From Paracoccaceae bacterium (lineage in GTDB: Bacteria; Pseudomonadota; Alphaproteobacteria; Rhodobacterales; Rhodobacteraceae), in NCBI GenBank assembly GCA_026989055.1, contig JALSKC010000026.1, positions 1 to 64,000 on the forward strand: DNA of 64,000 bases. Direction: 5' to 3'. The notes under the pieces are model-generated. The model was not told the DNA's origin. It saw nothing but the letters and a program-made list of their open reading frames with translations, and did not search any database. Positions 371 through 20,629 of this stretch are shown here, piece by piece. Within the stretch, counting starts at the first letter, position 1, and each line of letters begins with the position of its first letter. A program made the translations under genes and the position numbers.

Positions 371-377
371 AAACGCC

Positions 378-3352: not shown

Positions 3353-3383
3353 TACCTGCTGATACCGGAAACCGACTGATACC
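3349..3383 (+). repeat. Three short direct repeats CTGATACC
   Basis: CTGATACC occurs at 3349-3356, 3359-3366 and 3376-3383, beginning at the stop codon of the third pilin gene. The spacing is irregular (10 and 17 bp). Function unknown; it may be slippage debris. Confidence 0.5.
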
Positions 3384-3612
3384 GCACGCCCGGGCCGCGG
3401 CGGGGCGGCCGCTCCCCGCGATGCGCCGCCTGCCCGCATGTTTCCGGATCCGCTATCGCCCATCGTTTCCATTCGCGTCAAAATCCACCGGCCGGACACG
3501 CTTTATCCAATGTTCTGCCGCATTTCCCCGATAACGTCTTCCCGGTGAAATGCCGTTCCGGATCTGGCGCCACGGGGGGGCTGAACGGTGTGACGGCAGA
3601 GAGGACAGAGCA

Positions 3613-4479
3613 ATGCGTATTGTATTCGGACTTGTCTTGCTGATCGGCATGGGGCTGGCTGGTTTCGCCGTCTACATGGCCCGGGACTATATCAGCGAAT
3701 ACCAGGCCGCCCTGGCCCGCGAGCGCGAAGCGAATTCGCGCATGGTTCAGACCGCCGAGGTCTTCGTCGCGAACCGGCAGCTGCGCTACGGCGAAAGGCT
3801 GAAACCCGAGGACGTGCGGATGGTCCGCTGGCCGGTGGACGCCATTCCCCAGGGCGTATTCAACAGCCAGGAGGCCCTGTTCCCGAAAGGGCCGGACGAG
3901 CTGCGCACCGTGATCCGCGCCATGGAAAAGGACGAAGCCATACTGGCGGTCAAGGTGACCGGCCCGGGCGAGGATGCGGGCGTTTCGTCCCGGCTCGGCA
4001 AGGGGATGCGCGCCTTTGCCATCAGGGTTGACGTGGCTTCCGGCGTGTCCGGCTTCCTGCGCCCCGGAGACCGGGTCGATGTCTACTGGACCGGGCGCAA
4101 CTTCGCCGACGATTCCAACCGGCGCGGCGCCGAAATCACCAAGCTGATCGAGAGCGGCATCAAGCTGCTGGCCATCGACCAGATCGCCGACGAGGACCGC
4201 AACACCGCGATAATCGCACGCACCGTGACCGTCGAGGCCACCCCGCTCCAGGTCGCCGCGCTGGCCCAGGCGCAGGCCACCGGCCGGCTGTCGCTGGCGC
4301 TGCTGGGCGCCGAGGATCCGGGACAGACGGACTCGGTCGAATACGACGGCCGCGACCTGCTCGGGATCGAGGAACGGCAGGTCGTCCAGGTCGAGCCGGA
4401 GCGGGTCTGCACGATCCGTACCAGACGCGGAGCCGAGATCATCGAAACCCCGATTCCCTGCGCCGACGCCGCCCGCTAG
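3613..4479 (+). CDS. cpaB: Flp pilus assembly protein CpaB/RcpC
   Basis: A 288-residue protein with one N-terminal membrane segment (about residues 5-23) and an otherwise periplasmic chain. It carries the SAF-type region (VFVANRQLRYGERLKPEDVRMVRWP) typical of CpaB/RcpC and a central stretch with SGVSGFLRPGDRVDVYW that is characteristic of the family. CpaB acts in the periplasm with the secretin during Tad pilus assembly; how it does so is not settled. I chose the ATG at 3613, with GAGAGGAC upstream, because it places the membrane segment at the N-terminus; an earlier ATG at 3550 would add 21 polar residues. It is separated from cpaC by a hairpin-bearing gap, so it may not be strictly co-transcribed with it. 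Confidence 0.9.
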   Translation: MRIVFGLVLLIGMGLAGFAVYMARDYISEYQAALAREREANSRMVQTAEVFVANRQLRYGERLKPEDVRMVRWPVDAIPQGVFNSQEALFPKGPDELRTVIRAMEKDEAILAVKVTGPGEDAGVSSRLGKGMRAFAIRVDVASGVSGFLRPGDRVDVYWTGRNFADDSNRRGAEITKLIESGIKLLAIDQIADEDRNTAIIARTVTVEATPLQVAALAQAQATGRLSLALLGAEDPGQTDSVEYDGRDLLGIEERQVVQVEPERVCTIRTRRGAEIIETPIPCADAAR

Positions 4480-4834
4480 GAGCCCAGCCAGGCGCGCCAG
4501 GATGCGGGAACGCCGAAAAGGAGAGGGGCGCCGGGCGGACACCCGCCACGCCCCTCTCCCCTCCCCCCGCACATGCGGCAGCTGCATGCGGCGGGTGAGG
4601 GAACACGCCGGCAGGCCGGCACCCTTCCGCGGATTCGCCCGATCGCCCTTCCCGAAAGGCCGTCCTTCGGCATGAATCCGCCACCGCCGCGGCCCGGGTG
4701 TTGCGACTTGTCCACATAAGCGCCGCTGCTCAGACAATTGATTCTTGCAATAAAACGGGCTTTGCCGCATGGTGGCCGGAAAATGGGCGATTTCGAAGAC
4801 CCGTAACGAGGCGTGATCGGAGAGGCAGGTCACC
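4480..4834 (+). other. Intergenic region between cpaB and cpaC
   Basis: A 355-bp gap without a recognisable gene. It contains a strong hairpin at 4520-4559. A more AT-rich stretch around 4725-4765 (ending ttgattcttgcaataaaacg) is the likeliest place for a cpaC promoter, but I cannot define the boxes confidently. Confidence 0.45.
4520..4559 (+). terminator. Hairpin after cpaB
   Basis: GGAGAGGGGCG (4520-4530) pairs perfectly with CGCCCCTCTCC (4549-4559), an 11-bp stem with further pairing possible inside. There is no T run. It may terminate or attenuate transcription from cpaB, or stabilise the 3' end of its mRNA. Confidence 0.45.
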
Positions 4835-6250
4835 ATGAAAATCGGAAGTTTCCTGAAGGCCGCGCTGGTCGGCTTTTCCCTTTCCGTTGCCACCATGACG
4901 GGCGCGGCAACGGCAGAACCGCTCAAGGTCATGCAGGGCACGGCGGCAAGCGCGCTCAACGTGATCATGAACCGCGCGGTCGTGGTCGAATCCGAGCAGC
5001 CCTTCGCGGAGGTCTCGATCGCCAACCCCGAGATCGCCGACATCTCCACCCTGTCGGAGCGCACGCTCTATGTTCTCGGCAAGACGCCCGGGCGCACCAC
5101 GCTGACCCTGCTGGGCCCCGACGCGCGGCTGATCACCAATGTGGAAGTCCGCGTGACCCCGGATGTGGACGAGTTCAAGGAACGGCTGCGCCAGATCCTG
5201 CCGGGCGAGCAGATCGAGGTGCGCACCGCCAATGACGGCATCGTGCTGTCCGGCGTCGTTTCCAGCATCGCCAAGCTGGACCGGGCGCTCGACCTGGCCA
5301 ACCGCTACGCCCCCGAGCGGGTCTCGAACCTGCTGATGGTGGGCGGCACCCAGCAGGTGATGCTGAAGGTCCGCTTCGCAGAGATGCAGCGCTCGGTGCG
5401 CAAGAACCTGTCCGCCAGCCTGGCCCTCGGCAACGGGAACACCGCCGCCGGCAGCGGCTCCCTGGTGGGCGGCCCGGTCGCCTCGCTCTTCGACGGCGAC
5501 CCGACAACCAACCCGGCGGGCACCGTCGAATCCACCGGGCGCTACCTGTTCGGCTTCACCGCCGGCGGCCTGCAGCTGGCCATCGGCCTCGAAGCCCTCG
5601 AAAGCAAGGGGCTCGTGCGCACCCTCGCAGAACCGAACCTGACCGCGCTCTCGGGCCAGGCGGCGACCTTCCTGGCCGGCGGCGAATACCCGGTGCCGAT
5701 CGTCGATGATCAGGGCCGCGTGAATGTGGACTACAAGCCGTTCGGCGTCGAGCTTCTGTTCACGCCGCGGGTCGTTGACGGCGATGTCATCAACCTGCAG
5801 ATCACCGCCGCCGTTTCCGGCGTAGATCCCACCAACACCTTCCAGGCGAACGGTTTTTCCATCAACGCCTTCCGCCGGCGCGAGGCCTCGACCGTGGTCG
5901 AGATGCGCGATGGCGAAAGCTTCGTGATCGCCGGCCTCCTGGAGGACGACTTCAAGGACCTGAACGGCCAGGTGCCCTGGCTGGGCGACATCCCGGTTCT
6001 GGGCGCGCTGTTCCGCAGCGCCGACTACGAGCGCAACCAGTCGGAGCTGGTGATCATCGTCACCCCGCATCTGGTCACCCCGACCCGCGGCGAAGCCCTT
6101 GCCCTGCCCACCGACCGGGTCAGGCCGCCGACGGAAGCCGAGCTGTTCCTGTTCGGCAAGACCGCCAGTGCGAACCGCCCGAAAAGCGGCGCCGCCTCCG
6201 AAGTCGCCAAGCAGGACTTCGGCGGCTCCTACGGCTACGTGATGGAGTGA
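4835..6250 (+). CDS. cpaC: Tad/Flp outer-membrane secretin CpaC/RcpA
   Basis: A 471-residue secretin that forms the outer-membrane channel for the Flp pilus. A signal peptide (about 1-27, ending TGAATAEP) is followed by an N-terminal periplasmic domain, a BON-like region around 100-150, and the C-terminal secretin domain. The family signature is visible near 385-400 (VPWLGDIPVLGALFRS). Length and layout agree with CpaC. The stop codon shares a base with an ATG of the next gene (TGATG), so translation of the following lipoprotein is probably coupled. GGCAGG lies near the ATG. A proline- and alanine-rich C-terminal tail follows the secretin domain. Confidence 0.93.
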   Translation: MKIGSFLKAALVGFSLSVATMTGAATAEPLKVMQGTAASALNVIMNRAVVVESEQPFAEVSIANPEIADISTLSERTLYVLGKTPGRTTLTLLGPDARLITNVEVRVTPDVDEFKERLRQILPGEQIEVRTANDGIVLSGVVSSIAKLDRALDLANRYAPERVSNLLMVGGTQQVMLKVRFAEMQRSVRKNLSASLALGNGNTAAGSGSLVGGPVASLFDGDPTTNPAGTVESTGRYLFGFTAGGLQLAIGLEALESKGLVRTLAEPNLTALSGQAATFLAGGEYPVPIVDDQGRVNVDYKPFGVELLFTPRVVDGDVINLQITAAVSGVDPTNTFQANGFSINAFRRREASTVVEMRDGESFVIAGLLEDDFKDLNGQVPWLGDIPVLGALFRSADYERNQSELVIIVTPHLVTPTRGEALALPTDRVRPPTEAELFLFGKTASANRPKSGAASEVAKQDFGGSYGYVME

Positions 6251-6255
6251 TGAAC

Positions 6256-6921
6256 ATGGCTGGGCAAACGAAAGCGGCTCTTGCGGCGGCAGGATTCGTG
6301 GCGCTGAGCGCCTGCACGGGCAGCGGCCCCTTCGGCGACGGCACCCCGTTCGACAGCTGGACGCAGGAGGCCGGGGCCTTCATCGACGAGGGGCAGTTCG
6401 GCAATCCGACCATGAACAACACGCTGGTGCAGACCGGCAAGAAGAGCTTCATCATCAACCTCAACAACAGATTCGCCGCCGAAGTGCCCACCACGGTCAA
6501 CTTCGCCTTCGACAGCGCCCTGCTCGATGGCGAGGCCCGGGCGATCCTGCGCCGGCAGGCCGACTGGATCAGGCAGTTCCCCGAAGTGCGCTTCCGTGTC
6601 TACGGGCATACCGATCTCGTCGGGACCGAAGCCTACAACAGGCGCCTCGGCATGCGCCGGGCCCGAGCGGTGGTAAACTACCTGGTCGGCCAGGGGATCG
6701 ACCGCTCCCGTCTCGAAGCGGTTGTTTCCCTGGGCGAAACGCAGCCGCTCATCGTCACCCAGAACCGCGAGCGGCGGAACCGGCGCACAGTGACCGAGGT
6801 CTCCGGGCTGGTGCGCAAGCACCCGGCCCTGCTGAACGGCAAGTATGGCGAGCTTCTCTTCCGCGAATACGTGGCCAGCGCCACCGAGCGGCCGACCACC
6901 GATACCGGCGATCTGGAGTGA
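6256..6921 (+). CDS. OmpA-family lipoprotein of the tad locus
   Basis: A 221-residue lipoprotein. The signal peptide ends in the lipobox LSAC, with the acylated Cys at residue 20. A C-terminal OmpA-type peptidoglycan-binding domain (about 70-185) contains VNFAFDSALLDGEAR and VYGHTDLVGTEAYNRRLGMRRARAV. It follows cpaC directly, where many tad loci encode the pilotin-like lipoprotein CpaD. I infer that it anchors or stabilises the secretin at the cell wall. The start is ambiguous: an ATG at 6250 overlaps the cpaC stop, but the ATG at 6256 has better spacing (8 nt) from GGAG at 6244-6247 and gives a 20-residue lipoprotein signal. Confidence 0.85.
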   Translation: MAGQTKAALAAAGFVALSACTGSGPFGDGTPFDSWTQEAGAFIDEGQFGNPTMNNTLVQTGKKSFIINLNNRFAAEVPTTVNFAFDSALLDGEARAILRRQADWIRQFPEVRFRVYGHTDLVGTEAYNRRLGMRRARAVVNYLVGQGIDRSRLEAVVSLGETQPLIVTQNRERRNRRTVTEVSGLVRKHPALLNGKYGELLFREYVASATERPTTDTGDLE

Positions 6922-6929
6922 CGGGCCTG

Positions 6930-6965
6930 CCCCCGGGAGCGCGCCTGCGCGCCCCGACCCGGGGG
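6930..6965 (+). terminator. Hairpin between the OmpA lipoprotein gene and cpaE
   Basis: CCCCCGGG (6930-6937) pairs with CCCGGGGG (6958-6965), with an inner stem GCGCG/CGCGC (6939-6943 with 6948-6952). An AT-rich stretch follows (6975-7030), possibly a cpaE promoter; a weak candidate is TTGGCC at 6999 with TATTCG at 7021, spacer 16. This suggests that cpaE onward can be transcribed separately. Confidence 0.45.
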
Positions 6966-7148
6966 AGCATCGTTCAAAAAACCGAATTAATACGGCTTTT
7001 GGCCCCAATATTGCCCAGATTATTCGACAGCTTCGCCCCCAGGAGCCGTGCGTCGTTTCGAGTCGCACGCGGCACCTGGCGGTGGGATCCGAATTGAGTG
7101 CGGCACTCCTTCCTGCCTGCGGTGCCGGAAAGTGGAAGGACTGAAGCA

Positions 7149-8384
7149 ATGACGAGCAGCGCAGCATTGCAACCCGAGCCGGCACCGATCGTCGCCTGCA
7201 CGATCAGTCGCGATGTCCAGAACTTCGACCTGCTGATCGAGGACATGGAGACCGAACTGGGCGAAAGCTGGGGCGATCTGTCGTTCGAGGATGCCAAGGT
7301 CTTCATGACGCAGCCGGATTCGGCAACGCTCGAATTCGTTGCCATCGCCATCGATTCGGAAGACGAAAAGGATCTGGCGCTGATTTCGGAACTGATCCGC
7401 ACCGCCGGGGCGCAGGGAATCAAGGTGATCGTGATCGCCGAGGATGTCAGCCCCGTTGCCCTGCACCAGCTCCTGAAGCAGGGCGCCGAGGAATTCGTCC
7501 CCTACCCGCTGCCCGACGGCGCCCTGCACGACGCCATCGAGCGCCTGCGCGCCCCGGCTCCGGCCGAGCCCGCGCCCACCGCGCCGCAGCACAAGTCGGG
7601 CGGCGGGCACGATGGCGTGGTGCTGGCCGTGCACGGGCTGGCAGGCGGCGTCGGCGCCACGACCTTTGCCGTGAACATGGCCTGGGAGCTGGCCACAATC
7701 GACAAGAAGAACCCGCCCAGGGTCTGCATCCTCGACCTCGATCTGCAATACGGTTCGGTCGCCACCTTCCTGGACCTGCCCCGGCGCGATGCGGTCTTCG
7801 AGCTGCTGAGCGACACCGAGAACATGGACAACGAGGCCTTCCTGCAGGCGTTGCAGTCGGTCGATGACACGCTGTTCGCGCTGACCGCGCCGGCGGACAT
7901 GCTGCCGCTGGATCTGATCGGCCCCGAAGACGTGCAGCGGCTGCTCGATGCCGCCCGGACCAATTTCGACTATGTGGTCGTGGATCTCCCATCGACCGTC
8001 GTGCAGTGGACCGAGGTGTTGCTGCACTCGGCCCATGTCTATTTCGCGCCGCTGGAGCTGGACATGCGCTCGGCGCAGAACACGCTGCGGATGATCCGGG
8101 CGCTGAAGGCCGAGGATCTGCCCTTCGAAAAGCTTCGCTACGTGCTCAACCGCGCGCCCAGGTTCACCGACCTATCGGGGAAGAGCCGGGTCAGGAGAAT
8201 GGCCGAAAGCCTCGACATCAAGATCGAGGTGCTTCTTCCCGACGGCGGCAGGCAGGTGACCGAAGCCAATGATCAGGGGCTGCCGCTGGCCAGATCGGCG
8301 GCCAAGAGCCCTTATCGCAAGGAGCTGCGCAAGCTGGCCATGTCGGTGCACGAACTGAACCTGTCGGTCGCCGAAGCCGGCTAG
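7149..8384 (+). CDS. cpaE: Tad pilus localisation protein CpaE/TadZ
   Basis: A 411-residue two-domain protein. Residues 10-135 resemble a degenerate response-regulator receiver domain. Residues 155-400 form a MinD/ParA-like ATPase domain with AGGVGATT at 165-172, where the P-loop lysine of the usual GGVGKTT is alanine (A170), followed by the LDLDLQYGS motif. CpaE/TadZ proteins direct assembly of the Tad machine to a pole, and a weakened P-loop is known in this family. I chose the ATG at 7149, with AAGGA 8 nt upstream; the frame is open back to 7098. The gene starts the block that continues with cpaF, tadB and tadC. Confidence 0.92.
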   Translation: MTSSAALQPEPAPIVACTISRDVQNFDLLIEDMETELGESWGDLSFEDAKVFMTQPDSATLEFVAIAIDSEDEKDLALISELIRTAGAQGIKVIVIAEDVSPVALHQLLKQGAEEFVPYPLPDGALHDAIERLRAPAPAEPAPTAPQHKSGGGHDGVVLAVHGLAGGVGATTFAVNMAWELATIDKKNPPRVCILDLDLQYGSVATFLDLPRRDAVFELLSDTENMDNEAFLQALQSVDDTLFALTAPADMLPLDLIGPEDVQRLLDAARTNFDYVVVDLPSTVVQWTEVLLHSAHVYFAPLELDMRSAQNTLRMIRALKAEDLPFEKLRYVLNRAPRFTDLSGKSRVRRMAESLDIKIEVLLPDGGRQVTEANDQGLPLARSAAKSPYRKELRKLAMSVHELNLSVAEAG

Positions 8385-8411
8385 ACGGCAGCATCCGGGG
8401 GAAGAGTTTCC

Positions 8412-9863
<1,452 letters not shown>

Positions 9864-9868
9864 ACATC

Positions 9869-10837
9869 ATGGTCATCAGCGCAGAACCGCTCATCTACGG
9901 GCTGATCTTCATTTCGGTCATCGTCCTGGTCGAAGGCATCTACCTGACGGTCTTCGGCAAGTCGATCAGCCTCAACAGCCGGGTGAACCGCCGCCTCGAG
10001 ATGCTGGAAAAGGGGGTCGGGCGCGAACAGGTGCTGGAGCAGCTCCGCAAGGAGATGAGCCAGCACATGAAGGCGCGCTCGATCCCGATCTATTCGATCC
10101 TGGCCGAAAAGGCTCAGAAGGCGAACATCGCCTTCACCCCGCAGCAGCTGATGCTGATCATGGCGGTGCTCGCCGTGATCTCCTTCATCGGGCTGACCAT
10201 CGGCACCGCCGCCAGCCTGCCGGTGCGGGCCATACTGGCGGTGGTGATGGGGGTCGGCGGGGTCTATGTCTGGGTCAACAACAAGGCCAGGAAGCGCCTG
10301 GCCCTGATCGAGGAACAGCTGCCTGATGCGGTGGAGCTGATGGTGCGCAGCCTGCGCGTGGGGCACCCGTTTTCCTCGGCACTGGCGATCGTCGCCAAGG
10401 AGGTCCCCGACCCGCTGGCCTCCGAGATGGGCGTGATCTCGGACGAGGCCGCCTACGGGCGCGACGTGGGCGAGGCGCTCAAGGACATGGCCGAACGGCT
10501 GGACATGCAGGATCTGCGCTTTCTGGCGGTGGCGGTGACCATCCAGCAGGTTTCGGGCGGCAACCTGGCCGAGATCCTCGACGGGCTGGCCAAGGTGATC
10601 CGGGCCCGCTTCAAGCTGTTCCGTCGGGTCAAGGCCATCACCGCCGAGGCGAAATGGTCCGGCATGTTCCTGTCGATCTTCCCGATCGGCGCGCTGGTGA
10701 TGATCAACGTGATCCAGCCCGACTATTACGACGACGTGAAGGAAACCGCCGCCTTCATCCCCGCCGCCCTGGTCGTGGCCGGCTTCCTGGTGGCCAATGT
10801 CTTCGTCATGCGCGCGCTCGTGAACATCAAGGTCTGA
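9869..10837 (+). CDS. tadB: Tad inner-membrane platform protein TadB
   Basis: A 322-residue type II secretion F-domain protein. Membrane segments occur near 5-25, 95-135 and 270-320, with the cytoplasmic T2SF domain between (LPDAVELMVRSLRVGHPFSSAL, then QVSGGNLAEILDGLAKVIRARF). Together with TadC it forms the inner-membrane base on which the ATPase acts. The start is the ATG six bases after the cpaF stop codon. Confidence 0.94.
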   Translation: MVISAEPLIYGLIFISVIVLVEGIYLTVFGKSISLNSRVNRRLEMLEKGVGREQVLEQLRKEMSQHMKARSIPIYSILAEKAQKANIAFTPQQLMLIMAVLAVISFIGLTIGTAASLPVRAILAVVMGVGGVYVWVNNKARKRLALIEEQLPDAVELMVRSLRVGHPFSSALAIVAKEVPDPLASEMGVISDEAAYGRDVGEALKDMAERLDMQDLRFLAVAVTIQQVSGGNLAEILDGLAKVIRARFKLFRRVKAITAEAKWSGMFLSIFPIGALVMINVIQPDYYDDVKETAAFIPAALVVAGFLVANVFVMRALVNIKV

Positions 10838-10846
10838 GGATCCGCC

Positions 10847-11830
10847 ATGGAAATGCTGCAAGACATCGAAACCATGCTGACCGATCAGCTGGGCCCGTTC
10901 GGCCCGCTGCTGGCGGTGGGCATCCTCGGCATGTTCCTGGTGCTGCTGACCCTGCCGGTCCTGCTGAAGAAGCAGGCCGATCCGCTGGACAAGCTGCGCG
11001 AGGCGAACCGGCCGCGCGAGAGCGGTCGCGAAACGGCCCAGAAGCTGCGCCACGGTTCGGGCAAGGACAAGCTCGAGAAATATTCCGAATTCCTCGAACC
11101 CAAGAACGAGGAGGAATATTCCGCCATCCGGCTCAAGCTCCTGCAGGCCGGCTACCGCTCGAAGAATGCGGTGCGGACCTATCACTTCCTGCAGTTCTCG
11201 CTCGGCATCACCCTGCTGATCATCGGCGCGCTGGTGGCGATCGTCCTGAAGACGACCGGAGATCCCTCCACCCAGCAGATGATCTTCACCATCCTGGGCC
11301 CCGGCGTCGTCGGCTACATGCTGCCGAAATACTGGGTGACCAAGCGCCAGCAGAAACGGCAGGAGGAAATCGTCAACGGCTTTCCGGATTCGCTCGACAT
11401 GATGCTGGTCTGCGTCGAGGCCGGCCAGTCGCTCGACCAGTCGATCAACCGCGTGGCCAAGGAAATCCGTGCCGGCTACCCCGCCCTGGCCGAGGAATAC
11501 GAGATGGTCGCCCACGAGATGAAGGCCGGCAAGGACCGGGTGCAGGTTCTGCGCGACATGTCCGAACGCGCCGGCGTGCCGGATGTGTCGAGCTTCGTTA
11601 CCGTGCTGATCCAGTCGGCCACCTTCGGCACCTCGATCGCCGAGGCGCTGCGCGTCTACGCGGCGGAAATGCGCGACAAGCGCGTGATGCGCGCCGAGGA
11701 AAAGGCAAACACCTTGCCCACCAAGATGACTCTTGCCACTATGATGCTGACCGTGCCGCCGCTGCTGATCATCCTGATCGGCCCGTCGGTCTACAATATC
11801 GCGGTCATCCTGAAAGGGGCCAACTTCTGA
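10847..11830 (+). CDS. tadC: Tad inner-membrane platform protein TadC
   Basis: A 327-residue partner of TadB, also with a T2SF domain (FPDSLDMMLVCVEAGQSLDQSINRVAKE, then SFVTVLIQSATFGTSIAEALRVYA). Membrane segments lie near 22-40, 115-155 and 295-322. It starts 9 bp after tadB, preceded by a GAGGATCC ribosome-binding region. Standard length and position in the tad locus. Confidence 0.94.
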   Translation: MEMLQDIETMLTDQLGPFGPLLAVGILGMFLVLLTLPVLLKKQADPLDKLREANRPRESGRETAQKLRHGSGKDKLEKYSEFLEPKNEEEYSAIRLKLLQAGYRSKNAVRTYHFLQFSLGITLLIIGALVAIVLKTTGDPSTQQMIFTILGPGVVGYMLPKYWVTKRQQKRQEEIVNGFPDSLDMMLVCVEAGQSLDQSINRVAKEIRAGYPALAEEYEMVAHEMKAGKDRVQVLRDMSERAGVPDVSSFVTVLIQSATFGTSIAEALRVYAAEMRDKRVMRAEEKANTLPTKMTLATMMLTVPPLLIILIGPSVYNIAVILKGANF

Positions 11831-11834
11831 TCTG

Positions 11835-12401
11835 ATGCGAAAAATCCGGGTGGGTCTGATCATGGCGGCGGGGCTTTTGGCCGCCTGCGCGCCTGCGGGC
11901 GGCCTTCGCATCGGAGAACCCGGCCCCTACGCCCCGGCCGGAGTCGCGCCCGGAGAACAGTCGGTGGACGGGCTGATCGTCGGCCACCGGCTGATGGCCG
12001 CCGGCGAATACGAGCTGGCGCTCAAGGCCTATCTGCGCGGTGCCGCCGAACACGGAATGAACGCGGATGTGCTCTCGGCGCTGGGCTCGGCCAATCTGGC
12101 GCTGGGGCGGCTGGGGCAGGCCGAACGGCTGCTGCGCCAGGCCATCGCGGTCGACGAAGGCTTCGTGCCCGCCTGGAACAACCTGGGCGTCGTGCTGATG
12201 GAACAGGGCAATGTCGGCGAGGCGGCCCGCGTGTTTCACACCGCCTTCGCGCTCGACAGTGGCCAAAGTGCCGAAATCCGGGAGAATTTGCGCCTGGCAC
12301 TCGAAAAACTCGAAAAACCGGCGTATCCTGAGAGCGATGACAGCACATTCGCGCTGGTTCGGCGGGGGCCCGGGTCGTATCTGCTCCTGTCGAAACGATA
12401 A
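11835..12401 (+). CDS. tadD: TadD-like TPR lipoprotein
   Basis: A 188-residue lipoprotein. The lipobox LAAC places the acylated Cys at about residue 18. Tetratricopeptide repeats follow from about 55 to 150 (for example SALGSANLALGRLGQAERLLRQAI and PAWNNLGVVLMEQGNVGEAARVF). TadD proteins are TPR lipoproteins needed for Tad pilus assembly, possibly for secretin assembly. The ATG lies 4 bp after the tadC stop codon, suggesting coupling. Residues after about 155 have no clear repeat. Confidence 0.85.
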   Translation: MRKIRVGLIMAAGLLAACAPAGGLRIGEPGPYAPAGVAPGEQSVDGLIVGHRLMAAGEYELALKAYLRGAAEHGMNADVLSALGSANLALGRLGQAERLLRQAIAVDEGFVPAWNNLGVVLMEQGNVGEAARVFHTAFALDSGQSAEIRENLRLALEKLEKPAYPESDDSTFALVRRGPGSYLLLSKR

Positions 12402-12449
12402 CAAGCGAAGGCTGACAACGGAGGCAGAGCAGCAAGGGGACGCAGGCAG

Positions 12450-13310
12450 ATGCGCCAACCGAGAATCTTCACCCTGTGCCTGGCCGGCAGCCTGGCCCTG
12501 TCGGCATGCGAGAAGGCCAGCACCAGCAACGAGGTCGAACGCGCCCTGCGCGGGGTCAACGTGATCGACGAAAGCAACCTGAACGACATCATGCTCTCGG
12601 CCGCCGATCCGGCCGAGGCGGTAACCTATTTCCGCCGCACCCTGGCCGAAGATCCGGAGCGGATCGACCTGCAGCGCGGCCTGGCAAAGGCCCTGCTGCG
12701 CGCCGGCAGGGCGCGTGAGGCGCTGCCGGCATGGGAAAAGGTCATCGCCCATCCGGAAGCCACCGATCCGGACCGGGTCGATTACGCCGATGTGCTGATC
12801 CGGGTCGGCAAGTGGGACGAGGCCGAACGGATGCTGGATTCCGTCCCCCCCACTCACGAGACATTCAAGCGCTACCGGCTGGAAGCGATGATCGCCGACA
12901 GCAACGAGGAATGGGAAAAGGCCGACAGCTTCTACGAAATCGCCGTCGGCCTGACGACGCGCCCCTCGGGCGTGCTCAACAACTGGGGCTATTCCAAGCT
13001 GACCCGCGGCGATTTCGTCGAGGCCGAACGGCTTTTCACCGAGGCGCTCAAATACCGCTCGGACATGTTCACCGCCAAGAACAACCTGGTCCTGGCACGC
13101 GCGGCGCAGCGCAAGTACATGCTGCCGATCGTCCCCATGACCCAGACCGAACGCGCCCAGCTGCTGCACACCATGGCCCTGGCCGCAATCAAGCAGGGAG
13201 ACGTGAACACCGGCCGGACCCTGCTCCGGGAAGCGATCGATACCCATCCGCAGTATTTCGAGGTCGCCGTGCGGGCGCTGCGGGCGCTTGAAAACAACGT
13301 GATCAACTGA
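12450..13310 (+). CDS. Second TPR lipoprotein of the tad locus
   Basis: A 286-residue protein with a lipoprotein signal ending LSAC (Cys at about residue 21) and several TPR-like units between about 50 and 200 (RGLAKALLRAGRAREALPAWEKVI, NNWGYSKLTRGDFVEAERLFTEAL). AAGGGGA precedes the ATG. It belongs with the tadD-type gene just upstream; paired TPR lipoproteins in tad loci may divide the task of secretin or pseudopilin handling. Specific function unassigned. Confidence 0.8.
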   Translation: MRQPRIFTLCLAGSLALSACEKASTSNEVERALRGVNVIDESNLNDIMLSAADPAEAVTYFRRTLAEDPERIDLQRGLAKALLRAGRAREALPAWEKVIAHPEATDPDRVDYADVLIRVGKWDEAERMLDSVPPTHETFKRYRLEAMIADSNEEWEKADSFYEIAVGLTTRPSGVLNNWGYSKLTRGDFVEAERLFTEALKYRSDMFTAKNNLVLARAAQRKYMLPIVPMTQTERAQLLHTMALAAIKQGDVNTGRTLLREAIDTHPQYFEVAVRALRALENNVIN

Positions 13311-13312: not shown

Positions 13313-13807
13313 ATGGAAATGTCGGCCTGGGCGGCGCTGCTGTTCCTGCCCCCGGTGCTGCCCATCTGCATATGGGTGGCCTGGAACGACATGAAATACA
13401 TGAAGATTCCGAACAAGGCGGTGCTCGCCCTGTTCGCCGTCTTTCTGGCGATCGGGCCGCTGGCGTTGCCGCTTGCCGAAATCCCGCAACGCCTGCTGCA
13501 GCTTGTCGTCGTGCTCGCGGCCGGGTTCGCGCTGAACATGCTGGGCAGCCTCGGCGCGGGCGATGCGAAATTCGCCGCCGCCGCCGCCCCTTTCATCGCT
13601 CCAGGAGATCTGCCGCTTCTGTTCTACCTGCTGGCCGCCGTCCTGCTGGCGGCGGTAGCCACCCACCGGCTTGCCCGCCGGCTGAAACCCCTGCGCGCCC
13701 TGGCACCGGACTGGCAGTCGTGGACGCGCAGCGACTTCCCGATGGGGCTGGCGCTGGGCGGAACGCTTGCCTTCTACCTGGTCGCGGCGGCTCTGGCCGG
13801 CCGCTGA
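13313..13807 (+). CDS. cpaA: Prepilin peptidase TadV/CpaA (A24 family)
   Basis: A 164-residue polytopic aspartic protease, about the usual size for the short TadV/CpaA class that lacks the N-methylation domain. Catalytic aspartates are visible: D26 in WNDMKYMKIPN and D84 in LGAGDAKF, the family GxGD motif. It cleaves Flp-type prepilins after the leader glycine, here presumably the three pilins at 2502-3352. The start is 2 bp past the preceding stop codon. Confidence 0.9.
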   Translation: MEMSAWAALLFLPPVLPICIWVAWNDMKYMKIPNKAVLALFAVFLAIGPLALPLAEIPQRLLQLVVVLAAGFALNMLGSLGAGDAKFAAAAAPFIAPGDLPLLFYLLAAVLLAAVATHRLARRLKPLRALAPDWQSWTRSDFPMGLALGGTLAFYLVAAALAGR

Positions 13808-13876: not shown

Positions 13877-15496
13877 TCAGAGCGGCGCATACAGGATGTA
13901 GAGCGGCGTGCGACGGATTTCCCGGAAAGCAAGCCCCCGCTCCTCGATCTGCTCGAGGATTCGCCGCCGCAGTTCCGGGATCACCGGGCAGAGCGGCACC
14001 AGCAGGTAATCGGCGCTCTCGATCCCGGGCAGCCCCCCGTAATACCAGGGCGCCCCTCCGATCAGCGGCCGCAGGTCGCCGAACAGCCAGTGGCTGGAAA
14101 ACAGGTCGGCGGCGAAGAGGCGCCGCCCGCCGGCCAGGCCTGCCTGCTCCAGGTCGGCGGCAATCGCGTCGAACCAGGCAGGCAGGCCGATCTCCAGTTC
14201 GCATTCGGGCAGGGTCTCGCCCCCGAAAACCGCCGGCGGGTCGCGCTCGGCCAGTTCAGCGGCCGCCTCCAGCGGCGTGCCCGCGGCCGGCAGCGGCACC
14301 CGGGCATCGGTGCGTGCCACCCTGACCCGGGTGCCGTAGATGTCGCCGTGGCGCTGCGCGCGCGGCAGCAGCGGGGTGTAGTCCGCCGTCTCCAGCCGCA
14401 GGTGGCGGAAGGGGCTGTAGGCCAGGTTGAAGAAGGAAGGCGCCGCCAGCGCCAGGGCGACCGCGGCGGTGATCCTGACTGCGGCACGCATGTCCCAGCC
14501 CAGGGCGTTGCGCAGCTCGCGCCGGGGGGCGAAGGCCAGAAGAACCACCGCGAGAATCAGCAGCCACTGGGGATCATTGCCGTAGTTCTGATAGGTGACA
14601 TAGAAGAACCCCGGCGCCAGCAGCAGCAGCGACAACCCCCCGGCGCGCGCATTGGACTGACGCAGGAAGATCACCCCCGCAAACAGGGTCAGGCTGGCCC
14701 CCAGATAGGCCGGCGCCCCGACAACGGCGCCGAAAGGCTCTCCGGGGTTGGGGCGGATATCCGAGCGCGCAACCGCCAGCAGATCCTGCACATAGGCCGG
14801 CCAGTAGTCCGCCCCGACCAGGAGCGTGAACAGCCCCAGCGCAGCCGCGCCACTCCACAGGGCATGCAGAAGGCCCGGAAGGGCCCCGCGCAGCAGCAGC
14901 GCGATGGCCAGGGCCGGCGCAAAGGCCGTGAAATAGGTGACCTTCGTCAGCAGCACCAGGGCAAGCGCCAGACCGATGATCACCCCGTCGATCAGATGCC
15001 GCGGCCGATGCAGCGGCACCAGCACGGCGGCGGCGATGGCAACGAAGCTTGCCGCCCAGGCCCAGCGGTTGTAGTTCATGGAGATGGAAACGCTGCGCTG
15101 GGCCTCGCCATGCACCAGCGCCCCTATGAGCACGAAGACGAACAGCCCGAACATGTAGGGCAGGATCCCCCGCATCCGGCTGAAGGCCACCCACCAGACG
15201 GCAGGCAGGAACGCCACCGCGACAAGGGCCTGCGCCATCAGGATCGAATGCCCGATACCGTAGCCGAGCCGGACGAACAGGGCGATCGGGGCGAAGGCCA
15301 TGTAGCCGATCGGGGTCATGAAATCCCTGTGCGGCAGCTGCCCTTCGGCCATGCGCAGCACGATCTGCATCATGTGCAGCGTGTCGCCTTCGTGCTTGCC
15401 CAGGTAGAAGCCGCCCTTCAGCAGCGCCGCACCACAAATTGCGACGATCACCGCCACAAAAAAGCCAAAGAGAACCGTAGGATTTGCCCTGCCCAT
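13877..15496 (-). CDS. Polytopic membrane protein, possible GT-C-type glycosyltransferase
   Basis: A 539-residue protein with roughly ten or eleven hydrophobic segments in the first 375 residues and a soluble C-terminal third (about 380-539). Near the N-terminus, between the first and second membrane segments, is the acidic stretch GKHEGDTLHMMQIVLRMAEGQLPHRDF. An Asp/Glu in the first periplasmic loop is typical of GT-C glycosyltransferases that use polyprenyl-phosphate sugars, so that class is possible but not established. The gene converges on the tad locus and diverges from the ATPase gene at 15649. It has no obvious operon partner. Function not recognised. Confidence 0.6.
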   Translation of the reverse strand: MGRANPTVLFGFFVAVIVAICGAALLKGGFYLGKHEGDTLHMMQIVLRMAEGQLPHRDFMTPIGYMAFAPIALFVRLGYGIGHSILMAQALVAVAFLPAVWWVAFSRMRGILPYMFGLFVFVLIGALVHGEAQRSVSISMNYNRWAWAASFVAIAAAVLVPLHRPRHLIDGVIIGLALALVLLTKVTYFTAFAPALAIALLLRGALPGLLHALWSGAAALGLFTLLVGADYWPAYVQDLLAVARSDIRPNPGEPFGAVVGAPAYLGASLTLFAGVIFLRQSNARAGGLSLLLLAPGFFYVTYQNYGNDPQWLLILAVVLLAFAPRRELRNALGWDMRAAVRITAAVALALAAPSFFNLAYSPFRHLRLETADYTPLLPRAQRHGDIYGTRVRVARTDARVPLPAAGTPLEAAAELAERDPPAVFGGETLPECELEIGLPAWFDAIAADLEQAGLAGGRRLFAADLFSSHWLFGDLRPLIGGAPWYYGGLPGIESADYLLVPLCPVIPELRRRILEQIEERGLAFREIRRTPLYILYAPL

Positions 15497-15648
15497 GACC
15501 GCGTTCCGCTGCTCGCCCTCTCCAGACTAGCGCGGAATGACGGAGCTTGTAACAGCCATCGCTGTTCCCGGCGGCCGTTTTCCGGGCCCCGCGCCCGAAA
15601 CACAACAGGCCGGATGCCGGGAACGCCGTGCAATGCAGAGGATTGCCC

Positions 15649-16959
15649 ATGAACATGCAGGCTTCTCCGGTGCTCGCGCCCCCCGCTCCGCGTTCGCTCG
15701 AAGATACCGGCCTCACCCCTGTCATGATGCGGGACATCCTGCTCAAGACGATGTTCCGCCAGAACCTGGATCAGGTGAGCGCACTTTCCCGTGCCCTGTG
15801 CCTGCCGATCAACGTCACCCAGGAGCTGGTGGACCTGGCCCGCGGCCAGAAACTGCTGCAGGCGACCGGCACGCTCCATGCGAATTCCGGCGGCGAAATG
15901 GGTTACGAGCTGACCGACAGCGGCAAGGCGCGCGCGCTGGATGCGCTGTCGCAATCCGAATACTACGGCGCCATGCCGATCCCGATGAGCGCCTATGGCG
16001 AACAGGTCAAGCGCCAGTCGATCCGCAACATCCAGGTGACGCGCGACATGCTGACCGGCGCGATGAAGCACCTGATCCTGCCTGACGAACTGCTGGACCA
16101 CCTCGGGCCGGCCGTTTCCGCCGGCCGCTCGATCCTGATGTACGGCCCGCCGGGAAACGGCAAGTCTTCGATCTCGAACGGTATCCGTGATGCGCTGGGC
16201 GACAACATCTTCGTGCCGCGCGCCATCGAATATTCCGGCCAGGTGATCACCGTCTACGACCCGGTGGTGCATACCATCGCCGAAGATCCGGTGGACGACC
16301 CCAACAGCCTGCGCCGCACCTCGAACCGCTACGACCGGCGCTACGTGCTGTGCGAACGCCCCACCGTGATCACCGGGGGCGAACTGACGTTGAGCATGCT
16401 CGACCTGGTCTACAACCCGACTTCGCGCACCTACCAGGCGCCGCTGCAGCTGAAAGCCACCGGCGGCATCTTCATCGTCGACGACCTGGGTCGGCAGGCC
16501 GAATCTCCGCAGGCCCTGATCAACCGCTGGATCGTACCGCTGGAGGAAAACAAGGACATCCTGGCCCTGCAGTCGGGCGAGAAATTCGAGGTGCCCTTCG
16601 ACACGCTGGTGATCTTCTCCACCAACTTCCACCCGAACGAGATCTTCGACCAGGCGGCGCTGCGGCGGATCTTCTTCAAGATCAAGATCGACGGTCCCAG
16701 CCAGGAAGACTTCCTGAAGATCTTCGCGATGGTGGCGCGCAAGCGCAAGATGCCGCTGGACGAAGAGGCGCTGATCTACCTGATGAAGAAGAAATACCCG
16801 CTGATCGACAACGTCTATGCAAATTATCAGCCGATCTTCCTGGTCGATCAGATGATCGCGATCTGCGAATTCGAGGGCATCCCCTACCAGATGAGCCCGG
16901 AGCTGATCGACCGTGCCTGGGCCAACATGTTCGTGCACGAGGAAAGAATCGTGCACTGA
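15649..16959 (+). CDS. AAA+ ATPase with N-terminal winged-helix-like domain
   Basis: A 436-residue ATPase. Residues 20-105 look like a winged-helix region (VSALSRALCLPINVTQELVDL ... MGYELTDSGKARALDAL). The AAA+ core shows Walker A GPPGNGKSS at 166-174, Walker B GGIFIVDDLG at 272-281, a sensor-1-like STN at 324-326 and a basic ALRRIFF stretch where an arginine finger could sit. The ATG at 15649 has AGAGGA 6 nt upstream and is preferred to a GTG at 15628. It follows the tad locus and is divergent from the membrane protein gene. Role unknown; the location suggests regulation or remodelling linked to surface assembly. Confidence 0.75.
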   Translation: MNMQASPVLAPPAPRSLEDTGLTPVMMRDILLKTMFRQNLDQVSALSRALCLPINVTQELVDLARGQKLLQATGTLHANSGGEMGYELTDSGKARALDALSQSEYYGAMPIPMSAYGEQVKRQSIRNIQVTRDMLTGAMKHLILPDELLDHLGPAVSAGRSILMYGPPGNGKSSISNGIRDALGDNIFVPRAIEYSGQVITVYDPVVHTIAEDPVDDPNSLRRTSNRYDRRYVLCERPTVITGGELTLSMLDLVYNPTSRTYQAPLQLKATGGIFIVDDLGRQAESPQALINRWIVPLEENKDILALQSGEKFEVPFDTLVIFSTNFHPNEIFDQAALRRIFFKIKIDGPSQEDFLKIFAMVARKRKMPLDEEALIYLMKKKYPLIDNVYANYQPIFLVDQMIAICEFEGIPYQMSPELIDRAWANMFVHEERIVH

Positions 16960-16986: not shown

Positions 16987-17802
16987 TCACGGCCGGGCCG
17001 GGGCCCTGCATTCGCGCGGCCGGGACCCGGTCCTTTTCTTCGCCCCGCGCTTCGCGCCGATCGGGCCGGCCTCGACCTCGGCCCGCATGGCGCGGCTGAC
17101 CGGAACCTTGCTGCCGTCGATCAGCTCGACAAGCCCCCGCGCGCCCTCCCGGCGATAGCCGGACACCGCCCCGGTCGCCACCCAGTGCGAGCGGTGCACC
17201 CGCTGGCCCGGCACCCCGTCAAGCTCGGCCAGCGCGTCGGAAAACCGCATCAGCAGCGTTTCCCGCCCCCGGTCGGTGTGAACATCCACATAGTGATCGC
17301 GGGCGCTGATCCGCAGGATCTTCACGTTCCGCGGCCCGGAAAGCCGCGCAAGCAGCCGCGGCCGCGCCTCGCGCGGCTGCGGCAGAACCCCGGCAAGACG
17401 GTCACGCAGCAGCCCGACGAAGACGACGATGGCCAGAACCAGCAGCACGATCAGCGAATAATCCGGCAGCCGGGACAGCTCGCCGCCGAAGACGCGGACC
17501 GATATCACAAGCGAAAGCGGCGGCAGCAGCACTGCGGCAAGGACGGCGCTGAAAAGGGTCGCCACGCCCCCTCCGGCCCGGGGCAGCCAGACGGCCGCGA
17601 CCGCCCGCCCGAGATTCACCACGAAAACGCTCATGAACACGATCGTGAACCAGTAGAGGAAGCGCTCCACCGGCCCCAGCGCGTCATAGCTGCCGAACGG
17701 GCCGGAAATGGCCAGGAAGGATGCCACAAAGACCGTGATCAGAAGGCGCACGGGAACCAGCATGTACTCCTTCAGCAGGAACAGCACCTTCTTCCAACGC
17801 AA
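16987..17802 (-). CDS. Membrane-anchored LytTR-family DNA-binding protein
   Basis: About 271 residues. Four hydrophobic segments occupy roughly 12-32, 47-68, 75-100 and 115-135, followed by a C-terminal LytTR domain (about 160-240: VKILRISARDHYVDVHTDRGRETLLMRF, then RVHRSHWVATGAV). LytTR domains bind DNA direct repeats; here the regulator would act from the membrane. The start is uncertain: a TTG at 17802 has GGAG 7 nt upstream, an ATG at 17763 has AAGGAG only 3 nt away, and the frame is open to 17910. The tail is very basic. It converges with the ATPase gene, 27 bp apart. Confidence 0.75.
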   Translation of the reverse strand: MRWKKVLFLLKEYMLVPVRLLITVFVASFLAISGPFGSYDALGPVERFLYWFTIVFMSVFVVNLGRAVAAVWLPRAGGGVATLFSAVLAAVLLPPLSLVISVRVFGGELSRLPDYSLIVLLVLAIVVFVGLLRDRLAGVLPQPREARPRLLARLSGPRNVKILRISARDHYVDVHTDRGRETLLMRFSDALAELDGVPGQRVHRSHWVATGAVSGYRREGARGLVELIDGSKVPVSRAMRAEVEAGPIGAKRGAKKRTGSRPRECRAPARP

Positions 17803-17932
17803 GGCGAAACTCCGGAAACCGCGCAGGCCTCCGGGTTTTCTGGAAAGGTGCGCCACGCCTGTCAAGAGGATACTCCGCCGCGCACGGGCGGCACGGAAAC
17901 CCGCCGGCACGGCCGGTCTGGCGATCTGGCGG

Positions 17933-18835
17933 TCAGACGGTCAGCCCCTCCGGTTCAGGCAGGCCGTGGGCACGGCAGCAGGCGGTGAGCGTGTTTGCCA
18001 GCAGGCAGGCGATGGTCATCGGTCCCACGCCGCCGGGCACCGGGGTGATGGCGCCGGCCACCCGGGCGGCGCTGTCGAAATGGACATCCCCCACCAGCCG
18101 GGTTCTGCCCTCGCCCCTTTCGGGGGCGGGAATGCGGTTGATGCCGACATCGATCACCGTGGCGCCGGGCTTGATCCACGCGCCGGTGATCATCTCCGCC
18201 CGGCCCACCGCCGCCACCAGGATATCGGCCCGCCGGCAGAGCTCCTCTATGTTGCGGGTCCGGCTGTGGGCGATCGTCACCGTGCAACTGTCGCGCAGCA
18301 GAAGCTGCGCCATCGGCTTGCCCACGATATTCGAGCGCCCCACCACCACCGCATCCATGCCCGACAAGGATCCGTGCAGGTCGCGCAGCATCATCAGGCA
18401 GCCCAGCGGCGTGCAGGGAACCATCGCCTTCTGCCCGGTCGCCAGCCGGCCGACATTGGATATGTGGAAGCCGTCCACGTCCTTTTCCGGGGCGATCCGG
18501 TTTATGACATTCGCCTCATCCATGTGCCCGGGCAGGGGAAGCTGCACCAGAATCCCGTGCACCGTCGGATCGGCGTTGAGATCGTCGAGCAACGCCAGAA
18601 GGGCGGCCTCTTCCGTCTCCGCCGGCAGGCGGTGCTCGAAGGAGTTCATCCCCGCCTCGACGGTCATCTTCCCCTTGTTGCGCACATAGACCTGGCTGGC
18701 CGGATCGTCGCCCACCAGGACAACCGCCAGCCCCGGCGTGATGCCGTGCTCTGCCTTCAGGCGCGCCACCTGGGCCGCCACCTTCCTGCGCACATCCGCA
18801 GCAAAGGCCTTTCCGTCGATGATCTCGGCGCTCAT
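17933..18835 (-). CDS. folD: Bifunctional methylene-THF dehydrogenase / methenyl-THF cyclohydrolase
   Basis: A 300-residue FolD. It interconverts 5,10-methylene-, methenyl- and 10-formyl-tetrahydrofolate in the cytoplasm, using NADP. Recognisable are [17 protein letters not shown] with the catalytic Lys, the QLPLPGHM stretch, [11 protein letters not shown] and the C-terminal [12 protein letters not shown]. It lies downstream of fhs on the same strand with a 117-bp gap; together they interconvert formate and one-carbon folates. Normal length. Confidence 0.97.
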
Positions 18836-18952
18836 GACATACCTTTTCCTCGGTTCACGGTTGTCTATGGGTTCTTGTCCATGGCATTCCCGGATTGCCG
18901 CCGCAAACCATGCTGCCCCATGAGGGCGCAGGATTTCGCCGATACCGGCGGA

Positions 18953-20629
18953 TCAGAACAGGCCCTCGATCTGACCAAGCTCGTTGAGGTGAATGCCCTC
19001 GGCGGCCGGATGGCCGGGCAGGCCCGGCATCGTCATGATCTGGCCGCAGATCACGATCACGAAGCCCGCACCGGCGCTCAGGCGCACTTCCCGCACCGGC
19101 ACCGAATGCCCGCTCGGCGCGCCGCGCAGGTCGGGATCGGTGGAAAAGGAATACTGCGTCTTGGCCATGCAGATCGGCAGATGGCCGTAGCCGGCGTTCT
19201 CCCACGCGCGCAGCTGATCGCGGATCTTCTTGTCTGCCAGCACCTCGTCGGCGTGGTAGATGCGTTTTGCGATGGTCTCGATCTTTTCGAACAGCGGCAG
19301 GTCGTCGCGGTAGAGCGGCGCGAACTGCGCGGCCCCGCTGTCGGCCAGTTCGACGACCCGCTCGGCCAGCTCCACCGCCCCCTCGCTGCCCAGTTCCCAG
19401 TGGCGGCAGAGGATCGCCTCGGCGCCCTGGGACTCGGCGCTCTGGCGGATCACCTCGATCTCGGCCTCGGTGTCGGTGACGAAATGGTTGATCGCCACCA
19501 CCACCGGCACCCCGAACTGCTTGAGATTGGCGATGTGGCGGGTCAGGTTCGGGCAGCCCTCGGCCACCGCCGCCACGTTCTCGGCATCGAGATCGGCACG
19601 CGCCACCCCGCCGTTCATCTTCATCGCCCGCACCGTGGCCACCAGCACCACCACATCCGGCGCCAGCCCCGCCTTGCGGCACTTGATGTCCATGAACTTC
19701 TCGGCCCCCAGGTCGGCGCCGAAACCGGCCTCGGTCACCACGTAGTCGGCCAGCTTCAGCGCCGTGGTGGTGGCGATCACCGAGTTGCAGCCATGCGCGA
19801 TGTTGGCAAACGGCCCGCCGTGCACGAAAGCCGGGTTGTTTTCCAGCGTCTGCACCAGGTTGGGCTGCATGGCGTCCTTCAGGAGCACCGTCATCGCCCC
19901 GTCGGCCCTGAGGTCGCGGCAGGTGATCGGGCTGCGATCGCGCCGGTAGGCGACGATGATGTCGCCCAGCCGCTTTTGCAAATCCTCGAGGTTGCGCGCA
20001 AGGCACAGGATCGCCATGACCTCGGACGCCACGGTGATGTCGAACCCGGTCTGGCGCGGAAAGCCGTTGGCCACGCCGCCGAGGCTGGTCACGATGTCGC
20101 GCAGGGCGCGATCGTTCATGTCCACCACCCGTTTCCAGGTGACCCGGCGTTCGTCGATGCCCAGTTCGTTGCCCCAGTAGATGTGGTTGTCGATCATCGC
20201 CGCCAGCAGGTTGTGGGCGCTGGTGATGGCGTGGAAATCGCCGGTGAAGTGGAGGTTCATGTCCTCCATCGGCACCACCTGCGCCCGCCCGCCGCCGGCG
20301 GCGCCGCCCTTCATGCCGAAGCAGGGGCCGAGCGAGGCCTCGCGGATGCAGATTGCGGCCCTCTTTCCGATCCGGTTGAGCCCGTCGCCGAGGCCTACGG
20401 TGGTGGTGGTCTTGCCCTCGCCCGCCGGCGTCGGGTTGATCGCCGTCACCAGGATCAGCTTGCCATCGGGGTTTCCCTGGACGGATTCGATGAACGCCTG
20501 CCCGAGCTTGGCCTTGTCGTGGCCGTAGGGCAGAAGATGCTCGGCGCCGATGCCCAGCTTTGCCCCGATTTCCTGGATCGGGAGCTTCGAGGCGGCGCGC
20601 GCGATTTCGATATCGGTTGGATGAGCCAT
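18953..20629 (-). CDS. fhs: Formate-tetrahydrofolate ligase
   Basis: A 558-residue enzyme making 10-formyl-THF from formate, THF and ATP. The P-loop [18 protein letters not shown] is at about 64-81, followed by [29 protein letters not shown]. The end carries [15 protein letters not shown], also typical. ATG at 20629 with GGGGGGA 5 nt upstream. The upstream 241 bp (20630-20870) contains an AT-rich block (20672-20703) that probably holds the promoter. It pairs with folD downstream. Confidence 0.97.

Follow-up and report, generated by a model that had tools for sequence, protein, structure and literature searches.

Tad/Flp (type IVc) pili govern surface attachment, biofilm formation, and host colonisation in many bacteria. 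In the papers we examined, CpaF/TadA is treated as the sole cytoplasmic motor of the Tad system. The section on the Tad model of MacSyFinder names tadV, tadD, rcpB, and rcpC together with "all the known key components" (PMC6668835), and in a gene-by-gene table of the Aliivibrio salmonicida tad operon the locus numbers place rcpC immediately after tadV (PMC6420764). Here we analysed a stretch of 64,000 nucleotides from a Paracoccaceae bacterium of the Rhodobacterales (assembly GCA_026989055.1, contig JALSKC010000026.1, positions 1 to 64,000; hereafter the window), which contains a tad locus, a gene for an AAA+ ATPase downstream of it and, divergent from the ATPase gene, a gene for a membrane protein of predicted GT-C fold. 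A preliminary description of this DNA had proposed that the three could form an unknown surface module. Our results point to the ATPase as an accessory, conserved component of the Tad pilus, a cytoplasmic AAA+ machine distinct from CpaF/TadA, the motor of the system, a reading to which we give a probability of roughly 0.6.

Linkage of the ATPase gene to tad in Rhodobacterales

Among 196 genomes of the order, the ATPase was found in 180 (72-83% identity among the listed relatives) and TadC in 184. Both were present in 179 genomes, the ATPase only in one, TadC only in five, and neither in 11 (Fisher test, 1.7e-13, which serves as a guide only because the genomes are related). The lone genome with the ATPase but without TadC (G055) has a TadD2 and a TadV remnant beside the ATPase gene. 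The positions of the two genes were compared for the 134 genomes in which both matches were listed, not for all 179. In 131 of them the ATPase gene followed TadC in the same orientation, at a distance of no more than 6.6 kb; in the three exceptions, two ATPase genes were 22 kb off and one was inverted at 13 kb.

In genomes lacking the GT-C gene, the gap between TadC and the ATPase gene had a median of 2,121 bp (101/101 within 6.5 kb), which leaves approximately the room needed for TadD, the second TPR protein, and TadV. Genomes carrying the GT-C gene showed a median gap of 3,801 bp, with the ATPase gene downstream on the same strand within 6.6 kb in 30 of 33. In loci of the order without the GT-C gene, TadV immediately preceded the ATPase gene, and the distance from the TadV stop to the ATPase start was 3-230 bp (52 such loci, some genomes represented twice), as expected of one operon. 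The linkage between the ATPase gene and tad is thus far above chance. The preliminary description had reasoned that the linkage would be accidental if the ATPase occurred widely without its neighbours; it does often occur without the membrane protein gene, but 179 of the 180 genomes of the order that have it also have TadC. Four genomes of the order (G110, G074, G082, and G107) have two or three ATPase matches each, and the genome of the window has one copy each of the ATPase and membrane protein genes.

Linkage beyond the order

The ATPase gene was also found in tad loci of unrelated lineages, namely on Rhizobium plasmids and in loci of beta/gamma type, a label that rests on named Photobacterium, Burkholderia, and Paraburkholderia loci sharing one gene order. 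The further samples included a scan of genome contigs (80 loci) and a plasmid search (75 records). On Rhizobium plasmids, the ATPase gene starts 15 bp past TadC, and on Rhizobium, Ensifer, and Sinorhizobium contigs it likewise comes directly after TadC. One laboratory strain with this kind of locus is Rhizobium etli CFN 42 (plasmid p42e, ATPase gene RHE_RS25680). On a Salipiger plasmid it is convergent beside TadC, and an annotated Paraburkholderia plasmid has the order flp-flp-tadV-ATPase-cpaB. The Salipiger plasmid locus (L160) and a Thalassovita locus (L137) represent a Rhizobium-like tad type with its own ATPase, possibly owing to horizontal transfer of a whole tad locus including the ATPase gene.

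In a sample of 398 genomes of the phylum, the ATPase was detected in 52. Outside the family of the window there were 27 such genomes (three in the window's class, the rest assigned to the phylum only), in 21 of which the ATPase gene was within or beside a tad locus and in six of which it was unlinked. One of the 21 was of Rhizobium type, and the other 20 showed the order (flp)-tadV-ATPase-cpaB-secretin. The ATPase gene was just upstream of CpaB in all 20 retrieved loci of beta/gamma type, and a tadV-like match, weak in several cases, preceded it in 19. In the same sample, rcpC was present in 50 of the 52 genomes with the ATPase versus 116 of the 346 without it (Fisher test, 4e-19). Furthermore, the distances among the ATPases tracked those among the CpaF proteins of 54 loci (Mantel r = 0.925, reached by 0 of 2000 permutations), as expected if the ATPase gene is inherited with the tad locus.

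Motifs, predicted fold, and family tests of the ATPase

Both open reading frames (ORFs) were confirmed at the coordinates first reported: the membrane protein of 539 residues on the minus strand, and an ATPase of 443 residues from a GTG codon (15628-16959) on the plus strand. The start of the ATPase is more likely the ATG at 15649 (436 residues), because an ATG occurs at or near the aligned position in 87 of 91 Rhodobacterales loci (some genomes represented twice). The structure model (predicted local distance difference test, pLDDT, 83.9) contained a winged-helix-like N-terminal domain, an AAA+ core, and a lid. The N-terminal domain was judged within the full-length model, where residues 31-109 followed the predicted order H-H-H-E-E-H (H, helix; E, strand). 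The Walker A motif, an Asp-Asp pair at Walker B, the sensor-1 Asn, and an Arg pair were all invariant in 26 ATPase sequences; most AAA+ proteins have Glu where this pair has Asp. The closest solved fold was that of Pyrococcus furiosus Q8U0N8 (8p49; Z 17.9, root-mean-square deviation (rmsd) 5.0, 287 aligned residues), which its own entry titles an uncharacterised protein, and archaeal Lon, sigma-54 activators, and NorQ were among the further best matches. By its motifs and predicted fold, the ATPase is an AAA+ protein, and the architecture of a winged-helix-like N-terminus joined to an AAA+ core that had been proposed earlier agreed with the model.

No family in Pfam or NCBIfam matched the ATPase above its cut-off; the matches were P-loop fragments only, and PADLOC, which shows no cut-offs, gave merely weak IetA matches. 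Of the MoxR-type families, bpMoxR of Pfam scored 16 bits against a cut-off of 27. Several identities were rejected. The IetA/IteA anti-phage ATPase was dropped on score (28.5 bits against the NCBIfam cut-off of 510), a T2SSE secretion ATPase of the CpaF/PilB kind because PF00437 did not match, and an MshEN-type cyclic di-GMP receptor because the MshEN domain is absent from this protein. A sigma-54 activator (bacterial enhancer-binding protein) was rejected likewise, as the GAFTGA/GxFTG loop was present in none of the 26 sequences. In genome annotations, members of the family appear as "AAA family ATPase" or "hypothetical protein".

The main rival explanation is that the ATPase regulates tad, its winged helix binding DNA and its AAA+ part acting as a switch for transcription of tad and of the divergent GT-C gene. 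The weak best profile matches of the N-terminus in the PDB include MarR and other winged-helix regulators, the two genes share a divergent promoter in genomes with the GT-C gene, and regulators commonly adjoin the loci under their control. On the other hand, the regulator matches reach an E-value of only 0.0055, winged helices serve protein contacts too, and the missing GxFTG loop argues against a sigma-54 activator. In addition, in most tad-linked loci the gene runs in the direction of the operon and sits inside it, either behind TadC or flanked by tadV and cpaB, which would be unusual for a regulator. We therefore regard a regulatory role as unlikely.

Two forms of the ATPase family

Most relatives of the ATPase outside tad loci were longer, with an extra MshEN-like domain at the N-terminus. 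In a profile search, the first approximately 55 residues of the long relatives matched the N-domain of PilF (E 2.6e-14) and MshE (E 1.8e-7). A locus was counted as tad-linked when two or more tad genes were found within 10 kb. Among 135 ORFs, which include duplicates (L075 and L129 are the same stretch, and the members of the pairs L070/L084 and L118/L191 agree wholly or almost wholly) as well as a partial sequence (L089), 66 had the MshEN-like domain and none of these was tad-linked, whereas 54 of the 69 without it were. Using the published definition of the cyclic di-GMP motif for MshEN (PMC5013675), the tandem motif was intact by a relaxed rule in two of the 66 MshEN-bearing relatives, and most motifs were degenerate; accordingly, cyclic di-GMP binding is not to be assumed.

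A quick tree was built from 119 of the 135 sequences, with partial, duplicate, and thinned Rhodobacterales entries removed; it had long branches and no outgroup. The tad-embedded copies occupied separate parts of it (groups of beta/gamma type; Rhizobium with Salipiger and Thalassovita; Rhodobacterales), and MshEN-bearing copies were placed between these parts. The minimum numbers of changes on the tree were six for the MshEN domain and five for tad linkage. As the tree has no outgroup, it does not separate loss of MshEN from gain, nor one capture by tad from several.

These relatives bear on a second alternative, in which the ATPase is a general AAA+ chaperone for surface or stress functions, similar to MoxR, that several tad loci captured and that is not specific to Tad. 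Relatives outside tad loci do occur in many taxa, and NorQ, a member of the MoxR class, and sigma-54 activators were among the AAA+ folds returned. However, copies embedded in tad loci are spread over separate branches of the tree, and their place within the locus varies. Copies that are mostly not embedded also co-occur with rcpC more than expected: the class-level genomes contained 17 ATPase loci in 15 genomes, with 37-44% identity and mostly unrelated neighbourhoods, and in this class sample outside the family, rcpC was present in 13 of the 15 genomes with the ATPase versus 98 of the 270 without it (Fisher test, 1.4e-4; genome G358, with a P-loop fragment at E 1e-4, was scored as lacking the ATPase). 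A VWA partner is usual for MoxR ATPases, and the two tad-linked TadG proteins examined had no match to a VWA domain; a TadG-like protein approximately 5 kb from the non-linked ATPase in locus L075 had a match below the cut-off (24.5 versus 27 bits). We consider a captured general chaperone less probable still than a regulator.

Some individual loci deserve mention. In two class-level loci, L075 and L077, Tad-type genes were located some 5-10 kb from the ATPase gene. The former (197-11824; from one alphaproteobacterial family) combines an MshEN-type ATPase and Tad-type genes with an Alg9-like GT-C transferase (PF03901), a NeuB-type enzyme, and a thiamine pyrophosphate enzyme. The latter has gene clusters in common with it. 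In this family, too, a GT-C gene thus accompanies Tad genes. Tandem ATPase genes were seen in L194 (8322-11139) and L196 (8231-11157), which belong to genomes G487 and G515; one of the two genomes has the MshEN-like domain in both copies, the other in a single copy. The taxonomic labels of L084 and L129 (Anaerolineae and Kuenenia) do not fit, since the same or near-identical sequences were found in genomes of the window's class (L070 and L075); these names look wrong, and the analysis gave no weight to taxon labels of loci from metagenome-assembled genomes.

The membrane protein and its association with the ATPase gene

No Pfam family matched the membrane protein, NCBIfam gave no significant match, and none of the sequence matches in the PDB had a meaningful E-value. 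Its structure model had a pLDDT of 69, with the C-terminal third poorly predicted. When structure chains were re-aligned to the model, 37 of 1000 reached a Z of at least 8, and the rows shown at Z 8-12.4 included ArnT, PMT4, AglB, PglB, OST, ALG3, AftA, AftD, PimE, and GPI-pathway entries. The OST, PMT, ArnT, ALG, Aft, PimE, and GPI-pathway entries are GT-C-fold proteins. Foldseek alone returned weak E-values (best 0.0034, ALG3). The predicted fold is thus GT-C, in line with the GT-C-like layout noticed in the preliminary description. GT-C enzymes have an acidic motif in the first loop after the first transmembrane segment (TM1), and the HEGD sequence at this place in the membrane protein, E36 and D38 of which were invariant in nine sequences, may be the catalytic motif on the periplasmic side. 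Based on the predicted fold and these two invariant residues, the protein is most likely a lipid-carrier-dependent glycosyltransferase.

Matches to the membrane protein were found in 42 of the 196 genomes of the order, 40 of them strong, with that of the window included. The position of the ATPase gene was listed for 35 of the 39 relatives with a strong match, and in all 35 the membrane protein gene was divergent beside the ATPase gene at 104-367 bp; genomes G184, G153, and G064 were outside this count. The GT-C gene also adjoins the ATPase gene in G011, at 143 bp. The pair was intact in three genomes (G045, G049, and G174) though the tad genes were 13-22 kb away; hence, the GT-C gene follows the ATPase gene more closely than it follows tad. 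Mapping its presence on a tree of 78 ATPases (24 carriers) indicated at least six changes. The best reading of these data is that the GT-C gene is an optional, lineage-specific partner of the ATPase gene in Rhodobacteraceae. The idea of linkage across genomes was thus borne out in that both genes are tied to tad, but not as a fixed three-part module: the tie between the ATPase gene and tad is strong and extends beyond Rhodobacterales, and the GT-C gene is present in about 40 of 196 genomes.

The association of the pair leads to a third alternative, in which the ATPase, the GT-C protein, and the LytTR-domain protein encoded next to them belong to a module for surface glycans, with tad as no more than its neighbour in Rhodobacterales. 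The occurrence of the pair away from tad in the three genomes above and in locus L154 would fit this, as would a LytTR match beside the pair in L154 and near it in L219. However, the ATPase gene still follows tadV in most genomes of the order, which lack the GT-C gene, and it occurs in tad loci of other classes without a GT-C match. We consider such a module very improbable. Modification of the pilus or of a polysaccharide by the GT-C gene product, as suggested earlier, is a plausible guess.

Layout of the locus

The coordinates of the features are given in Table 1. The family matches (RcpC, secretin, OmpA, CpaE, CpaF, TadC, the pair of TPR proteins, and the prepilin peptidase) confirmed that the flank is a tad locus.

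Table 1 Features of the tad locus and its flank in the window. Residue numbers of the ATPase are counted from the GTG codon.
Feature	Position	Strand	Basis or remark
tad locus	3550..13310	+	Pfam; TadB named by position and matches to relatives
RcpC/CpaB	3550-4479	+	Pfam
Secretin	4835-6250	+	Pfam
OmpA protein	from 6247	+	Pfam
CpaE	from 7098	+	Pfam
CpaF	8412-9863	+	Pfam, PF00437
TadB	from 9869	+	Position; matches to relatives
TadC	from 10847	+	Pfam
TadD (TPR)	from 11835	+	Pfam
Second TPR protein	from 12450	+	Pfam
Prepilin peptidase TadV	13313..13807	+	PF01478
Membrane protein of predicted GT-C fold, 539 residues, divergent from the ATPase	13877..15496	-	ORF, predicted fold
HEGD, residues 35-38, first loop after TM1	15383..15394	-	E36 and D38 invariant in nine sequences
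Tad-associated AAA+ ATPase (winged helix-turn-helix and AAA+)	15649..16959	+	ORF; GTG start at 15628 also possible
N-terminal winged-helix-like domain, residues 22-112	15691..15963	+	Secondary structure of the model; weak regulator matches
Walker A GPPGNGK, residue 173	16144..16164	+	Alignment of 26 sequences
Walker B acidic pair DD, residue 285	16480..16485	+	Invariant in 26 sequences
Sensor 1 FSTN, residue 330	16615..16626	+	Alignment of 26 sequences
LRRI, Arg-finger-like pair, residue 345	16660..16671	+	Alignment of 26 sequences
LytTR-domain protein	16987-17910	-	Convergent to the ATPase

The LytTR-domain protein possibly regulates the extended locus. Besides L154 and L219, a LytTR match was located 3-5 kb downstream in nine of the 18 other loci of L140-L158. 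In the window, the LytTR gene is followed by folD-like and formate-tetrahydrofolate ligase-like genes (17933-20629, minus strand), named from the sequence without a family search. A scan for the CtrA-type motif TTAA-N7-TTAA gave a single match with one mismatch, at 61914, which is not above chance.

Discussion

Several findings come directly from the sequences: the architecture of the ATPase, its tight linkage to tad and joint occurrence with it in loci of alpha-, beta-, and gammaproteobacteria, spacing like that of an operon, and the lack of a named family. That the ATPase gene is tied to tad in several lineages, and at different places within the locus, speaks for a joint function of the ATPase and the Tad pilus. 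Among the genomes with rcpC in the phylum sample, just 50 of 166 had the ATPase; hence, it is not a part of all Tad systems, and its absence from most of them indicates an accessory rather than a core part.

The most economical role for the ATPase would be that of an AAA+ factor remodelling or switching a Tad component. With its gene in the pilus operon of most genomes that have it, the protein would form an ATP-hydrolysing ring, and its winged-helix domain would recognise a partner. The pilins, TadV, and the inner-membrane platform are candidate targets, as suggested by the repeated position of the ATPase gene directly after the prepilin peptidase gene. Since the gene recurs after tadV, a role in pilin handling is one option. 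In genomes such as that of the window, the GT-C gene may have been inserted behind tadV, ahead of the ATPase gene, or may have been retained there. The GT-C and ATPase genes point away from each other and have a short promoter region in common. The GT-C protein would probably act on the periplasmic side, moving a sugar that is bound to a lipid carrier onto pilin or a surface glycan.

Several points weigh against an accessory Tad component. Among the 135 ORFs, 66 relatives with the MshEN-like domain and 15 without it were outside tad loci; therefore, the family may have a general role that was recruited to tad. The ATPase had no match at the threshold used in 116 of the 166 genomes with rcpC, and it was missing from five of the 184 genomes of the order with TadC. 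The co-occurrence counts are not phylogenetically independent, and a shared operon indicates co-regulation, not a substrate.

Nevertheless, an accessory Tad component remains our preferred interpretation. In the open-licence PMC literature, to which figures and most subscription journals do not belong, so that a locus map with the gene would escape notice, no paper was found that names the ATPase as a Tad component, and it is not so named in the passages considered from PMC8383342, PMC5013675, PMC10934763, PMC11322086, PMC12307814, PMC5913241, or PMC8461304. Thus, the view that the ATPase is outside the described set of Tad components held as far as these texts go, and within the same limits it would be an accessory part, so far unrecognised, of a known machine. 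As a gene found in tad loci of three proteobacterial classes, it is a testable candidate for control of pilus assembly, retraction, or pilin handling. Its linkage to tad gives a context to an ATPase family that annotation has left without a name, and the adjoining GT-C gene is a candidate for Tad-linked glycosylation. A bolder proposal, possible but rather doubtful at present, is that about a third of the tad-bearing proteobacteria possess a dedicated second AAA+ ATPase of common ancestry with the free-standing MshEN ATPase, and that the tad-embedded form, without the MshEN input, is a switch between assembly and retraction, something that Tad, having one bidirectional motor, was supposed to do without.

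Comparison with known systems

The ATPase and CpaF/TadA are both cytoplasmic ATPases of a tad locus; however, CpaF scored 229 bits for PF00437, whereas the ATPase had no match and a predicted AAA+ fold of the Lon/NtrC/MoxR/RuvB kind. With MoxR-like ATPases (NorQ, bpMoxR) it shares the AAA+ core (NorQ 9qh4: Z 13.7, rmsd 3.6, 224 aligned residues), but it falls below the Pfam cut-offs and has the additional winged-helix-like N-terminus. The MshEN/GSPII_E_N domain of PilB, PilF, and MshE is of the type found at the N-terminus of the unlinked relatives, but is absent from the ATPase of the window and from all 54 tad-linked ORFs. The membrane protein resembles GT-C glycosyltransferases in its model (ArnT 5f15: Z 12.4, rmsd 6.1, 377 aligned; Pmt4 9i5l: Z 12.4, rmsd 5.0, 317 aligned) and in the acidic residues of its first loop, but differs from ArnT, PMT, PglB/AglB, and ALG in being without a Pfam match. 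As for the Tad/Flp system itself, the 2019 section on the MacSyFinder Tad model mentions no such ATPase (PMC6668835), whereas the loci described here combine the standard components and operon of a type IVc pilus with an ATPase gene inside the operon or directly after it.

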